Shown piece after piece: positions 19,908-25,824 of a stretch of 64,000 nucleotides of DNA. The stretch is from Bryobacterales bacterium (GTDB taxonomy: Bacteria; Acidobacteriota; Terriglobia; Bryobacterales; UBA6623), in NCBI GenBank assembly GCA_022824585.1, contig JAJDZN010000255.1, positions 1 to 64,000 of the forward strand, read 5' to 3'. A model generated the notes under the pieces. The model was not told where the DNA came from and did not search any database. It saw only the letters and a list, made by a program, of their open reading frames with translations. How positions within the stretch are numbered: the stretch's first letter is position 1; the number at the start of each line of letters is the position of its first letter. The position numbers were made by a program, and so were the translations under genes.

Positions 19908-20099
19908 GGCTGGAGCTGGACGCAGCATTGAGCGGTGCCCGGTCGCGGACTCAGTCCACGGCTGATCGTCCCAAGTGGTGTTGGGTAGAACTGCACCTAG
20001 CCTGTCTGGGGACCTAGCGAGGAATCCCCTAAAGAATGAGTCTCGTCAGCGGTCATGCAGTCGGCCGGGGGCTGCAGGGCGCGATGGCATCAAACAGAC

Positions 20100-20129
20100 T
20101 TGACATTGCGCTGAACACAACGTTATAGT
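20100..20129 (+). promoter_or_regulatory. near-consensus sigma-70 promoter of the nucleotidyltransferase-Xre pair
   Basis: A perfect TTGACA at 20100-20105 is followed after 18 bp by TATAGT at 20124-20129, which differs from TATAAT at one position. It is the best promoter match I see in the window. The expected transcription start, 7 nt beyond the -10, coincides with the GTG start codon at 20136. Confidence 0.8.
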
Positions 20130-20135
20130 TGTGTT
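20114..20135. promoter_or_regulatory. operator-like perfect inverted repeat overlapping the -10 element
   Basis: The left arm AACACAAC (20114-20121) and right arm GTTGTGTT (20128-20135) are exact complements separated by 6 bp. The -10 hexamer lies across the centre and right arm. A dimeric HTH protein bound here would block RNA polymerase. The Xre protein encoded second in the operon is the obvious candidate (inference). Confidence 0.75.
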
Positions 20136-20579
20136 GTGGTGCCGTGCTTCGATAGCCGTGGCAATCTTCCAGTCGGAATTCACTGGGCCGACTGGACGGA
20201 CCTGCCGAGTCGCTTTGGTCGTACGCCCCATCGGCAGAGATTGCTCTACGGATTGAAGGAGGCCCTTGAGGTGCTTCGTGCAGCGGGGTGCCAATCGGTC
20301 TATCTCGATGGGAGTTTTGTCACGGCGAAGGACAGGCCGGGAGACTTCGACGCTTGCTGGGATGTGATGGAGGTGGACGTAGAGCGATTGGATCCGGTTC
20401 TTCTCGACTTTTCAAACGGACGGGCGGCGCAAAAGGCTCGCTTCGGAGGCGAACTGTTTCCAGCACAACTACCGAACGGTCCGAGCGGCAGAACGTTCCT
20501 CGAATTCTTCCAGATCGACAAACAGACGGGGGATCCCAAGGGCATCATCGCTCTAGATCTCCGGAGGTGGCAGCCGTGA
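20136..20579 (+). CDS. DUF6932-like putative nucleotidyltransferase
   Basis: The 147-aa protein has the signature of a pol-beta-type nucleotidyltransferase: GSF at residues 59-61, then ten residues to D70-F-D72, as in GS-x(n)-DxD metal-binding sites of MNT and AbiE-type proteins. The following stretches NGRAAQKARFGGELFP and EFFQIDKQTGDPKGI resemble the DUF6932 group as I remember it. The start is GTG 20136 (or the GTG one codon later); family-like sequence begins within the first ten residues, so a later start is unlikely. It would be cytosolic; its substrate is unknown. It is coupled to the Xre gene by a 4-nt overlap. A role as toxin or nucleotide transferase is inferred. Confidence 0.75.
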   Translation: MVPCFDSRGNLPVGIHWADWTDLPSRFGRTPHRQRLLYGLKEALEVLRAAGCQSVYLDGSFVTAKDRPGDFDACWDVMEVDVERLDPVLLDFSNGRAAQKARFGGELFPAQLPNGPSGRTFLEFFQIDKQTGDPKGIIALDLRRWQP

Positions 20580-21040
20580 TCAAGAACGAGCGACAGTATC
20601 GGATTACTCGAGCCCAAGTCGAGAAGTTTGAGCACGCGGTTGCCGAACTCGTGTCAGCCCCGGACACTCCTAGCGTGCACCCAGCGCTAAAGAAGGCACA
20701 GATCGATGCCCTGAGGAGCCAGCTGGGAGATTTGAAGGCCGAGCTAGGAGAATATCAGGCCTTGAGGTCGGGAAAACGGCAAACCCTGACGCTGGAGTCG
20801 TTTGATGACCTACCGCGTGCTTTAGTGCAAGGGCGAATTGCCGCGGGCCTAAGCCAGCAGGAGTTGGCTGCGAGGCTGGGCATCAAGGAGCAGCAGGTTC
20901 AGCGCTATGAAGCGAGCGATTATCAGTCCGCGAGTTTGGCACGAGTTGCTGAGGTATTCAGGGCGCTTGGGCTGCGCATCCAAAAGGATGTCTTCTTGCC
21001 GAGTGGGACCGCCGGACAAGACTGCGGTCCATTGAAATGA
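20576..21040 (+). CDS. Xre-family helix-turn-helix protein (antitoxin/autorepressor-like)
   Basis: The 154-aa product has an N-terminal helical region (residues 1-75, charged and probably dimerising) and a C-terminal Xre HTH at about 85-135 (LVQGRIAAGLSQQELAARLG, then EQQVQRYEASDY). The start GTG 20576 overlaps the upstream stop (GTGA) and follows CCGGAGG at 20561-20567, so the two genes are translationally coupled. Similar HTH proteins act as antitoxin and autorepressor in type II modules. The palindrome over the shared promoter is a fitting target. Binding is not shown by sequence alone. Confidence 0.82.
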   Translation: MIKNERQYRITRAQVEKFEHAVAELVSAPDTPSVHPALKKAQIDALRSQLGDLKAELGEYQALRSGKRQTLTLESFDDLPRALVQGRIAAGLSQQELAARLGIKEQQVQRYEASDYQSASLARVAEVFRALGLRIQKDVFLPSGTAGQDCGPLK

Positions 21041-21211
21041 ACGAGCTCCCCGTCCCGCCGTTTAGACTCATCTCGCCATCCTTGTAGAGCCGTCCCTGTA
21101 GCTTGTTCTTGAAGGCACGAAGCCTATCGATGCACACGACCACGCGATTGCTTGGCTAGCGGCCTCGCGTGGGAATTCCGAGCAGTTCGCAACGGACCCT
21201 CCGTTGCTGGC

Positions 21212-23917
21212 TCATGCCACGGCGCGAGCGCCGTGCATCCCGGAAACCAAGGCTGAACCTTCACCGAGTCCGGCAGCGGTCTCGATCGCTCGGATCAGGC
21301 TGTGAACCCCGTTCCAAGAGACGATCACCTCTTTCCCCACATTGCGCCGGGTCCGAGAGATCATTTCGGTAACGGCATGTGTCGCGGCACTCTTGACCAT
21401 GACGCAAAGGTCGGCGTTGCGAATCGGATCTTGAAGGCTGTCGGACCACACCGTGTTATGCAGCAACCTAATTTCAGCACTCGCTTCAATGGCTCGAATC
21501 CTGTCCCGCGCTATCTGTGCGGCTGACAGCTGCAACGTGTAGATCACGACACTCTTCCCCTTGAGGAATCTTGAGAGCCGCTGGAAGTCTTGGACGGATC
21601 GAGCTGCCACAGGTGCCGGGGTCGCATCGCCGTTGGCCGACCGGAGGAATTTCTGGATCTCGGCCTGCATTGCTTGATGCTTCGACGAGAGATGATACCC
21701 GGACGCTGACACATACTTGCAGATGTTCTCCAAGTACACGGCAAGGTAACCCTGATCCGGACAACGGTTCAGCAGGAACGGATTGGATAGCTCCAACGCC
21801 CATTTCACGTCTTCGAAATCTGACGTCTGCGCAGTCAAGCGATCCGCCGAATCGACCAGCTGCCTGTACTCGTTGAGTTCAGGACCCGCCTTTAAGATCA
21901 GAGAAATCAGCGCGAACGCGATCGCTTGGGAATCCTTGACGTCCAAGTTGTCTCGCACGCAATGGTTCAGGATTTCCCGATATATCTCCTTCCACTCCTT
22001 GCGCCCCTTCTGCGGGTCGGATCCCAAGAATTCCGCGAGAGCCAACAACGTGTGCCGGGGAGACTCGAGAACGCCAGACTTAAGCTTCGAACCTAGGGAT
22101 TCGGCGAAGCTGACGGGATCAGCGAATGGGCTTGTCACGGGGCAGGCCGGCACGTTGGTGGGATTCCAAGGCTTCACGCTGTCGGCATGGCTCGGGTCGC
22201 CAATGCGCTCGAGCCACTCTTCCCAAGGCCTGTCCCAGAACCGTTCACTCTTGACTGCTTCGCTGCGACTTCGGGTGGACGCCCTGTCAGCACGCGAACC
22301 GCCCCTCTTCGCGGTGCGACGCTTCGCGGCCGCGCCCTTCGCCCGACCCTTGCGACTGACGTCGCTCGCGGTCGTCGCCGCTCTGTCCTTCCTTGACGAG
22401 CCCTCTCCACCGACCTGCATTTCGCCGCCTGAACTGGAAGGCGCGGCCGGGTCCGCACCGCTCGAGAATTGATCATCAGAGGAGGCACCATCGGTGCTGT
22501 CAGAGTTGACGGCCACCTCAACTACCTCCGGATTCGCGAGGGCCTCTTCCAGTTCTGCCTGATAGTCCTTCGATGTATCGAACTCGTGGCCCGCTGGAGC
22601 GATGGCCGCCACGATGCGCCGCTTGCAGCTGGTCGCTTGCCGGGCAGCTTTCAGGATGAGTTCCTGCAAGTCCTGCTCGCGTGATTCGGCCTCCAACTGA
22701 GACTCTAGATCTGAATCGGCCGAGATTCGCAGGTCGACGAGTTCCGCACGGTGATCCTCCTTGGCGGTCTCAAATTCGCACCACTGTCCGAGTTCTCCGG
22801 TCAGGTGGTCTCGCAGCCGGTCGAGATCTCTCTCCAACTCATCTTCACGAACGGCTGGCGGAAGGCACCACGCGATCTGCCACAGCGCACACACTTGGCT
22901 TCGGATACCGTCGAGCCATGGCGCATCGTACTCTTTCGCGCAAGCGGTCAGGGTCTCGGCAACACGGCGGACCAAGGCCTGACGCTTTCGGAGATCGATG
23001 GCGGCGGTCATCTCTGATCGCAAAGCTTCAAGCTGCTTCACGGGTTCAACCAGATCGTCTAGACGCTGGAGCTTCGGAGAGTTGGACTTGAGATCTGACG
23101 CGATTTCAGTGATGAGATCGCACGAGCGATTCCATTCCTCCAGCAAGCGGGCCGGGCCAGCCATTGGCTCCGAGGCATCGAGCGCCCCGGAGTCAGCCGG
23201 TTCTGCAGCCTCTTTCGCAGAGTCCCGAACTGCGAACGCAAACTCCGCGGCTAGTCGTGCGGATCGTGCTGCAGCCCATTCAAGAATCCTTACGTCATCA
23301 ATAATGCTGGCAACCGCGAAGGTCGCAAGCACGGCTGCCTCTTGGCGATCGGCAGGAATCTCGTCCCAGCGAAGGAGGTCATCCCGAAGATCTGGCCAAA
23401 CCGCAAGTGCTGGCTCGTCAATGGAGGAGATGCGTCGTGAGTGCCGGAAGCCAACTACATCTCCGAGCGCCCGCTCAGCACGATCGAAGTCGAAATCCCG
23501 TTCGTAGAATTCCGGGTCATAACGCTCTAGGGCCGCGTGCTCAAGCGACGGTATGCGGTCCGGATCATGATTGGTCACCAGATCCAAGACGTACACCTCC
23601 CAGCCCTCCGAACGGGCGTCGGGACTACCGTAGAAGGCAAGGATCCTACGCTCGACCTTCTGGGACGTAGTGAGCCCGCGAAGCTTCAGTTTCTGCCCCT
23701 CAAGGTGGTGCCTCACTGGCTCGGCGTGCAGGATCGCTTGCCACGCCTTTCGGTTGGCTAGGCCGAACAGATCCTGCAATACCTTCAGGCCGGTCTTGCC
23801 ATCTGCAACGCAAGCCGGGAGTCCCGCTGGCAGTCTGTACTTCGGATTGACTCTCGTTTGGTTCGGAGCCTCATTTAGCTCTGGATCCGAATGCCTCGCT
23901 GGCAGTTTCGTCTTCAT
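21212..23917 (-). CDS. 901-aa protein of unknown function with DUF2325-like C-terminal domain
   Basis: I do not recognise this protein as a whole. Residues 1-200 look globular and helical (GLKVLQDLFGLANRKAW); about 230-440 are charged helices likely to form coiled coils; about 470-550 are a Ser/Asp-rich then Lys/Arg-rich linker with repeated SR, AK and RA; about 555-780 form a second helical region. Residues 788-882 alternate strand and helix and contain IRNADLCVMVKSAATHA and WNGVHSLIRAIE, resembling DUF2325. No membrane segment or signal peptide is visible. Start ATG 23917 has AGGGG upstream. Codons end in A/T more often than in rho or lon, consistent with transfer. It lies in an accessory insert between rho and phr. 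Confidence 0.85.
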   Translation of the reverse strand: MKTKLPARHSDPELNEAPNQTRVNPKYRLPAGLPACVADGKTGLKVLQDLFGLANRKAWQAILHAEPVRHHLEGQKLKLRGLTTSQKVERRILAFYGSPDARSEGWEVYVLDLVTNHDPDRIPSLEHAALERYDPEFYERDFDFDRAERALGDVVGFRHSRRISSIDEPALAVWPDLRDDLLRWDEIPADRQEAAVLATFAVASIIDDVRILEWAAARSARLAAEFAFAVRDSAKEAAEPADSGALDASEPMAGPARLLEEWNRSCDLITEIASDLKSNSPKLQRLDDLVEPVKQLEALRSEMTAAIDLRKRQALVRRVAETLTACAKEYDAPWLDGIRSQVCALWQIAWCLPPAVREDELERDLDRLRDHLTGELGQWCEFETAKEDHRAELVDLRISADSDLESQLEAESREQDLQELILKAARQATSCKRRIVAAIAPAGHEFDTSKDYQAELEEALANPEVVEVAVNSDSTDGASSDDQFSSGADPAAPSSSGGEMQVGGEGSSRKDRAATTASDVSRKGRAKGAAAKRRTAKRGGSRADRASTRSRSEAVKSERFWDRPWEEWLERIGDPSHADSVKPWNPTNVPACPVTSPFADPVSFAESLGSKLKSGVLESPRHTLLALAEFLGSDPQKGRKEWKEIYREILNHCVRDNLDVKDSQAIAFALISLILKAGPELNEYRQLVDSADRLTAQTSDFEDVKWALELSNPFLLNRCPDQGYLAVYLENICKYVSASGYHLSSKHQAMQAEIQKFLRSANGDATPAPVAARSVQDFQRLSRFLKGKSVVIYTLQLSAAQIARDRIRAIEASAEIRLLHNTVWSDSLQDPIRNADLCVMVKSAATHAVTEMISRTRRNVGKEVIVSWNGVHSLIRAIETAAGLGEGSALVSGMHGARAVA

Positions 23918-24450
23918 GCTGACCCCTGGGTACGTGCGCGGTCGGTCTAGCGCTCAGGCGCTCCCAGCTAGCCGGGCCGCTAGAATCAACTCCCCAGGAA
24001 TCTCCGCAGACACCGGCGACTTGGCGAAACCGAATCGTGAAGCTCTGAAGAGTCGCCCCCGCGCAGAATAGAACATTGTAGTCATCTCGTATCATGCCTC
24101 GCTGACAGTACGACGGGTACGCAGAACTGGAATACCACCCGAACGTACCGCTCTCCCAGACGATGTCTGAAGTTCGCCAGCTGGCGAGGTTCTCGTGAGC
24201 TGTCCTGCCATCACGATTCAGACTGACCTGTGTGCTCGGCCATAGAACCATGCGATCACACGGCCTAGCACGTTGCCGTTCGACGGAGAGGCACAGGGAT
24301 ACCCCGCGGCCACGCGAGCCATGCCCGGCAGGGCACGAGGAGCTGAATGTCTGCAAGAAGACGCCTCGAGCCCAATGAGCTTCCGCCGCTGCGCAGTTCA
24401 CGAGTCTTGGCTGCGAGAATGATCTCCGTGGCTCACCGATTCGAGGGGAG
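23918..24450. other. non-coding stretch between the 901-aa gene and photolyase
   Basis: No supported gene. A 14-bp perfect palindrome, TCGCCAGCTGGCGA, is at 24174-24187. The divergent promoters of the flanking genes must lie here, but I cannot assign -35/-10 pairs. A minus-strand open frame over the region overlaps both neighbours and looks spurious. Confidence 0.5.
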
Positions 24451-25824
24451 ATGAAGAAGGATTCGATAGTCGTCTTCCGGCGGGATCTACGCATCGCCGA
24501 CAACGCCGCTTTGAGCGCGGCTATGGCGGCTGGGCCGACCCTTGCTGTCTATGTGCTTGATGATGCGGCCGACGGGCGCCCGTTGGGCGGCGCAGGGCGC
24601 TGGTGGCTGCATTACGCTATCGTCCGCCTGCAGAGACAGCTAGCGGACCTTGGAGTACCGCTGATCCTCAGAAAGGGAGACCTCAATACCGCTGTTATCG
24701 ATGTCGCTATCGCTACGGGCGCTTGCAGGGTTCACTGGAATCGGCGCTACACGCCATGGGGCGCTCGGGCCGACAAGGCTCTCGGAATCGAACTACAGAG
24801 AATTGGAATCCTCTCCGACAGTTTCGAGGGCGCGTACTTGCGCGAGCCGGGGACGCTGCTGGCAAAGTCGGGAGCCTGCTACAGGGTCTTCGCGCACTTC
24901 TACAAGGCTTCGCTTGCAATGGCCGAACCATCGGCACCGCTCGCGGCCCCCGGCCGCCAAACGATGCCCGACATCTCAGTGGAGTCGGAGACGCTCGAAG
25001 ACTGGCGGCTTCTTCCCCGCAACCCGGACTGGGCAAGCGGTCTGCGCAGGGCCTGGGCTCCTGAAGCAAGCAGCGGCGAGTCGCGACTGTTCGAGTTCCT
25101 AAACAAGGATGTGGCCTCGTACGCGCAGGACCGCGACCGGCCGGACATTGACGCAACCTCGGCGCTTTCGCCGTATTTGGCGCACGGCGAGCTGTCGCCC
25201 CGCCAGTTGTGGCATGCGGCCCGACGCATACAGCGTGCCAGCCCTGGCGAAGGCCCGGGTATCGACTCGTTTCTTCGACAGCTCGTGTGGCGAGACTTCT
25301 CTGCAAACCTGCTCTATCACTTCCCCGACCTCGCGAATCGGCCGTTCCAAGAGAAATTCGAGCGGTTCCCATGGGCAGACGATCCAGCGTCTCTTGAGGC
25401 CTGGCGGAGAGGCAGGACAGGCTACCCATGGATCGACGCGGGAATGCGTCAGCTCTGGGTCACGGGCTGGATGCACAACCGGGTCCGGATGGGTGTCGGA
25501 TCCTTCCTGACCAAGCACTTGCTCCTACCGTGGCAGTGCGGCGAGGCTTGGTTCTGGGACACGCTCGTCGATGCGGACCCAGCCCAGAACATCGCGAACT
25601 GGCAGTGGGTCGCGGGCTGCGGGGCAGACGCCGTGCCGTACTTTCGCATCTTCAACCCGATCACCCAGGGCGAGAAATTCGACCCGACAGGTCGCTACCT
25701 GCGCAGATGGCAGCCGGCAGCGTCGAGCTACGTACCCGGCTCGGCCGGCGTCCCGCCTATCATTGGGCACAGGCAGGGTCGCGAGAGAGCGCTGGCGGCG
25801 TTTCGCTCCCTGTCCGACCGGTAG
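24451..25824 (+). CDS. phr: deoxyribodipyrimidine photolyase
   Basis: The 457-aa flavoprotein uses light to split cyclobutane pyrimidine dimers. The N-terminal alpha/beta domain starts IVVFRRDLRIADNAAL. The FAD domain has SALSPYLAHGELSPRQLW, RQLVWRDFSANLLYHFP, RTGYPWIDAGMRQLW, GWMHNRVRM and WDTLVDADPAQNIANWQW with Trp residues of the electron-transfer chain, ending PITQGEKFDPTGRYLRRW. Order and length match class I CPD photolyases; a cryptochrome-like function is less likely. Start ATG 24451 follows GAGGGGAG. It marks the right border of the accessory insert. Confidence 0.95.
   Translation: MKKDSIVVFRRDLRIADNAALSAAMAAGPTLAVYVLDDAADGRPLGGAGRWWLHYAIVRLQRQLADLGVPLILRKGDLNTAVIDVAIATGACRVHWNRRYTPWGARADKALGIELQRIGILSDSFEGAYLREPGTLLAKSGACYRVFAHFYKASLAMAEPSAPLAAPGRQTMPDISVESETLEDWRLLPRNPDWASGLRRAWAPEASSGESRLFEFLNKDVASYAQDRDRPDIDATSALSPYLAHGELSPRQLWHAARRIQRASPGEGPGIDSFLRQLVWRDFSANLLYHFPDLANRPFQEKFERFPWADDPASLEAWRRGRTGYPWIDAGMRQLWVTGWMHNRVRMGVGSFLTKHLLLPWQCGEAWFWDTLVDADPAQNIANWQWVAGCGADAVPYFRIFNPITQGEKFDPTGRYLRRWQPAASSYVPGSAGVPPIIGHRQGRERALAAFRSLSDR

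Follow-up and report, generated by a model that had tools for sequence, protein, structure and literature searches.

A stand-alone protein with a DpdD-related C-terminal half, probably a mobile one-gene anti-phage system, in Acidobacteriota

The Bryobacterales DNA analyzed here (a stretch of 64,000 nucleotides, hereafter the window) encodes, between its rho and photolyase genes, a 901-residue protein (P0001) that had initially been described from the sequence as having no recognisable family and as a possible defense effector carried in an insert. The locus thus raises the question of what such a protein is related to, whether it belongs to the site in which it is found and what it might do there.

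Gene structure and the DpdD-like C-terminal half

The P0001 gene runs from position 23917 to 21212 of the window on the minus strand, from an ATG to a stop codon. The remaining five frames across the same DNA contain between 17 and 34 stop codons apiece, so the open frame is not a product of chance, and full-length relatives exist (G003, 53% identity; G006, 38% identity; both with the same type of C-terminus), which upholds the gene as originally called. Interpretation as a pseudogene was dropped given the intact frame and the full-length homologs. The first 25 residues or so show no conservation among relatives, and the true start may therefore lie further in.

AlphaFold2 models built from three sequences, P0001 and two homologs, together with sequence comparisons, divide the protein into five parts, all encoded on the minus strand. 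A helical N-terminal part (residues 25-230; 23228-23845) is delimited by alignment with other proteins, ending in HEC-07 or AAA regions, that share it, and is followed by a coiled-coil part (residues 255-460; 22538-23155), defined by the models and homolog comparison, in which the helical core is modelled with pLDDT mostly between 55 and 91. Next comes a linker (residues 461-560; 22238-22537), assigned from the models and from composition, which is disordered at 462-562 (pLDDT < 50), then a helical repeat (residues 561-785; 21563-22237; modelled from 565) and finally a Rossmann-like end (residues 786-883; 21269-21562; modelled at 788-881). The coiled-coil core, second helical region and Rossmann-like C-terminus of the preliminary description are hence all recovered; its helical N-terminus is reproduced as to fold type, the first 255 residues being modelled as helical, albeit with low confidence. 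Residue counts likewise agree with an acidic-then-basic linker (8 D/E and no K/R at 461-500; 18 K/R and 6 D/E at 500-560), and codons are indeed less GC-biased than in clpX, lon and rho (GC3 of 0.67 versus 0.85-0.87), with values of 0.63-0.65 in an adjoining DUF6932/Xre gene pair.

DpdD is a member of the Dpd 7-deazaguanine DNA modification-restriction system, which comprises up to eleven genes. Within dpd islands, dpdD-K constitute the restriction operon (PMC11888242). The NCBIfam DpdD model (NF041061) matches P0001 with an E-value of 6.2e-29 over profile positions 271-687 of 704, and several PADLOC DpdD models match it as well (best E 5.7e-14). When P0001 and two near homologs were compared, profile to profile (hhalign), with a set of four DpdDs (from an order-level relative, Shinella, Agrobacterium and Nostoc), P0001 residues 565-883 align with DpdD 438-756 with a probability of 99.1% and an E-value of 1.1e-18. 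Judged by these profile matches, P0001 and DpdD share a homologous C-terminal half (residues 565-883 of P0001) and, since about 320 residues are DpdD-like, the protein cannot be said to lack a recognisable family. Positions of the Rossmann-like end that are invariant in all seven aligned proteins include IYTL (792-795), L828, D836, H847 and G870. Residue 869, however, is N in P0001 only and K in the other six DpdD-type ends of the alignment, so the P0001 copy may be weakened. The DUF2325 likeness noted previously is weak (PF10087, 15.9 bits against a Pfam gathering cut-off of 33.6), and is what a DpdD-type Rossmann end gives, below threshold, against Pfam. Beyond DpdD, PDB sequence searches returned no credible relative, Foldseek gave no match at E <= 0.001 for either of the two models, and the best VIA-align rows, consisting of designed helical repeats (Z <= 13.4) and generic Rossmann or receiver folds (Z <= 8.8), were rejected as relatives on the grounds that these are common folds. 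Fold searches yield only generic folds, and no catalytic mechanism is therefore indicated.

On sequence criteria, P0001 is nonetheless not DpdD proper. Its score of 101.4 bits does not reach the NF041061 equivalog cut-off of 300, in contrast to the 548 bits of a true DpdD from the same order (G066), and the N-terminal halves of both proteins do not align (hhalign, 0.6%). What P0001 has in common with DpdD is the helical repeat and the Rossmann-like end with IYTL, D836, H847 and G870; what sets it apart is a different N-terminal half with a coiled coil, its stand-alone condition and a genus in which no DpdA was found. This combination bears on the notion that P0001 could be a relic or satellite of Dpd-type restriction, that is, a DpdD paralogue requiring other Dpd proteins in trans. 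The C-terminal homology and the existence of a true dpdH-K/D cluster in the same order are congruent with that notion, which we nevertheless consider quite unlikely: the DpdD N-terminal half has been replaced, none of the loci examined has dpd genes beside a P0001 homolog, DpdA was found in none of 11 genomes of the genus with controls positive in three (the source genome being 91.8% complete), and DpdH was not found in any of the 11 either, although here the control genomes gave no match either. The G066 cluster (L014) is a genuine one, in the order DpdH-I-J-K-D, and DpdA was not found in this 99% complete genome, which either holds restriction genes apparently without their modification enzyme or has an assembly that missed DpdA.

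Accessory status of the gene and its neighbors

The window was compared by blastn with the equivalent site in relatives. In G003 the whole interval 19916-24464 is missing and rho meets the photolyase gene with 32 bases between them, the flanks being 98.7% and 94.1% identical to those of the window. G001 is collinear up to 21358 and resumes at 23876, having lost nearly all of the P0001 gene (21359-23875) and kept short remnants of both its ends. Isomerase- or oxidoreductase-type genes, named from sequence and not scanned, occupy the site in G005, G009 and G010, with G005 retaining a 148-base remnant of the HTH gene that neighbors P0001 in the window. The homolog of G003 is located on a separate contig, and its protein shares just 53% identity with P0001, despite the 98.7% DNA identity of the shared rho flank. 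The P0001 gene is accessory and undergoes rapid turnover. Contamination of the metagenome-assembled genome was considered and dropped, as the contig flanks match a genome of the same genus at 94-99% identity. As regards the site itself, the rho-photolyase interval (19916-24464) varies across the genus, with defense-like genes here and, as a remnant, in G001.

A 2OG-Fe(II) oxygenase gene lies downstream of the G003 homolog and an AAA ATPase gene with a weak PD-(D/E)XK match downstream of that of G006; few clear defense genes adjoin P0001 homologs. Because the neighbors of homologs differ, P0001 was taken as a single-gene unit. No conserved housekeeping neighborhood emerges from these loci and no known housekeeping family from the profile searches, either of which would, according to the preliminary description, have refuted its reading.

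The toxin-antitoxin-like pair previously reported beside P0001, in the opposite direction, is indeed present on the plus strand, and consists of a DUF6932 gene (20136-20579; PF22014, E 8e-39) and an Xre-type HTH gene (20576-21040) that overlap by 4 bases. Adjacency, a similarly low GC3 and the match of the DUF6932 protein to PADLOC PDC-M63A (E 2e-12) might be taken to indicate that P0001 is the toxin or partner of this pair. Such a link lacks support, and we deem it highly improbable, having considered and dropped the HTH pair as a partner: P0001 is encoded on the opposite strand, its homologs in G003 and G006 occur without the pair, and in G001 the pair region outlasts the deleted P0001 gene at 94.7% identity. 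The pair is better regarded as a candidate defense or toxin-antitoxin-like unit, separate from the P0001 gene.

The shared N-terminal module and its various ends

The region spanning about residues 25-460, which comprises the N-terminal part and the coiled coil, matches no Pfam family, but recurs as a module in 15 copies across 14 Acidobacteriota genomes with differing C-termini: DpdD-like, HEC-07, or an AAA ATPase region of approximately 1,500 residues accompanied by a partner gene of approximately 370 codons. Among the 11 genomes of the genus, and besides the two full-length relatives, the module carries a HEC-07 end in G002 (HEC-07 E 2.2e-9), is interrupted by a contig end in G005, is fragmented in G007 and is represented in G004 by the coiled-coil part alone, joined to an AAA ATPase; it has been lost from G001, which keeps a remnant of the C-terminal end, and is absent from G008, G009 and G010. 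Profiles built from the three full-length proteins and from the module itself carried the census into other classes. The module of G354 (E 1.2e-69 with a profile built without G354) continues into a HEC-07 end (E 1.6e-53), as does that of G457 (E 2e-15), while in G794, G778, G284 and G489 it leads into the AAA region and the partner gene follows. In G670, the AAA-form protein adjoins a YhaN-like ATPase.

The module is uncommon among the genomes surveyed, with 7 carriers among the 257 genomes of the order (all within the genus of P0001), 5 among 193 of the class of G354 and 5 among a phylum-wide sample of 396; the sampling of other phyla was confined to plasmids, phages, viral contigs and a single GTDB-contig scan. 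Single-sequence P0001 scans of GTDB contigs, IMG/VR, plasmids and phages returned nothing, a profile scan of GTDB contigs recovered two same-genus homologs only, and PHROGs gave no match to P0001. Profile scans of viral contigs were also empty, and there is thus no sign of phage carriage. One local profile search was silent on a control set with known pairwise matches, and blastp was relied upon instead.

P0001 has no match to the HEC-07 domain, and each C-terminal type is found elsewhere behind a different N-terminus: the HEC-07 type in Variovorax, the AAA type on plasmids of Salinibacter and Brasilonema, and the DpdD type in the DpdD of dpd clusters. A maximum-likelihood tree of the 15 module copies, whose reading must allow for long branches (G002), the partial row of G004 and groups that were named once the architectures were known, implies at least four switches of C-terminal type. 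For the HEC-07-ended copies a single clade is rejected (AU p 2.7e-7), as it is for the AAA-ended copies (AU p 3e-61); neither form having a single origin, ends have been exchanged repeatedly. The three DpdD-ended proteins group together in one clade, and by its architecture P0001 is a stand-alone, DpdD-ended member of an as yet unnamed module family. Within this family, an 859-residue protein of G664 (L042:7775-10354) consists of two tandem module copies with no recognised effector end.

This pattern bears on the view that P0001 is a cellular protein unrelated to defense, such as a scaffold or regulator, that varies by chance. The paucity of clear defense genes beside its homologs and the generic nature of its helical and Rossmann folds would be compatible with that view. 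The empty site, the deletion and the absence in close relatives, within flanks 94-99% identical, argue against it, as does the recurrent swapping of C-terminal ends, among which two types are known or candidate parts of defense systems, and we regard it as unlikely. Conflict systems that combine a constant module with variable effectors have been described in the form of effector-associated domains (EADs; PMC7159879), in which, as in the P0001 family, a constant part is joined to effectors exchanged among close relatives. Could the N-terminal module then be an EAD that recruits P0001, like-to-like, to an AAA or STAND core encoded elsewhere in the genome? The module is fused to an AAA ATPase in certain genomes and to effectors in different ones, which is what EADs display (PMC7159879). 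EADs, however, are small domains with cognate copies at other places in the genome, whereas the P0001 module is large (about 430 residues), has no adjoining partner with the same domain and, among intact members, occurs in one gene per genome, even if draft genomes could hide a second copy. It thus seems very unlikely that the module is an EAD.

A possible mechanism and its relation to other systems

Given that the back half of P0001 is related to DpdD and that its module is joined elsewhere to other suspected effectors, P0001 probably represents a hitherto undescribed kind of mobile, one-gene anti-phage system. That it is a conflict or defense protein appears moderately probable from these comparisons, and we favor on balance a single-protein conflict system, most likely anti-phage, made up of two interchangeable halves. 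The earlier guess of a defense effector in an insert gains support from the DpdD-like half, the accessory insert and the fusion of the module to HEC-07 elsewhere.

In the single-protein system favored here, the N-terminal module would sense an invader-derived cue, its coiled coil would assemble or multimerise P0001, and the linker would provide reach and perhaps contact with nucleic acid. Sensing would then free the DpdD-like helical and Rossmann-like end, which would attack, or recruit an attack on, the nucleic acid of the invader or the host. With the 7-deazaguanine mark missing, activation would have to lie in the sensor module, and self would be told from non-self by this module and not by DNA modification. 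If so, P0001 would represent a Dpd restriction protein freed from its multi-gene system, offering a one-gene handle on the role of DpdD.

More tentatively, and with somewhat greater doubt than confidence, the module may mark out a family of polymorphic immune proteins in Acidobacteriota that has not been described before, in which one invader sensor drives interchangeable effectors (DpdD-like, HEC-07 or AAA ATPase). This reading would further imply that the C-terminal half of DpdD is an effector in its own right, independent of DNA modification and of the remaining Dpd proteins. DpdD, HEC-07 and a plasmid-borne AAA system would in that case be connected by one N-terminal module, and this connection among three C-terminal modules, until now catalogued separately or not at all, would make the division of labor between sensor and effector testable in laboratory strains. 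HEC-07, which PADLOC lists as a candidate defense, is one of the Hma-embedded candidates, several of which, including HEC-06, display antiviral activity (PMC12988326). The HEC-07-ended proteins of G354, G002 and G457 carry the N-terminal and coiled-coil module of P0001, but P0001 itself has a DpdD-like end in place of HEC-07. Similarly, acidobacterial versions of the plasmid-borne AAA system bear the module, but P0001 has neither the ATPase nor the partner gene. The AAA system is a two-gene unit, present in Acidobacteriota as well as on plasmids from other phyla, that pairs an ATPase of approximately 2,000 residues with a partner of approximately 370 residues starting with LPGP. N-termini vary and, the AAA domain aside, the unit has no name in either PADLOC or Pfam; it is found at L039:7263-14425, L040:4110-11272, L080:3905-11194, L081:5153-12551 and L075:4747-11666.
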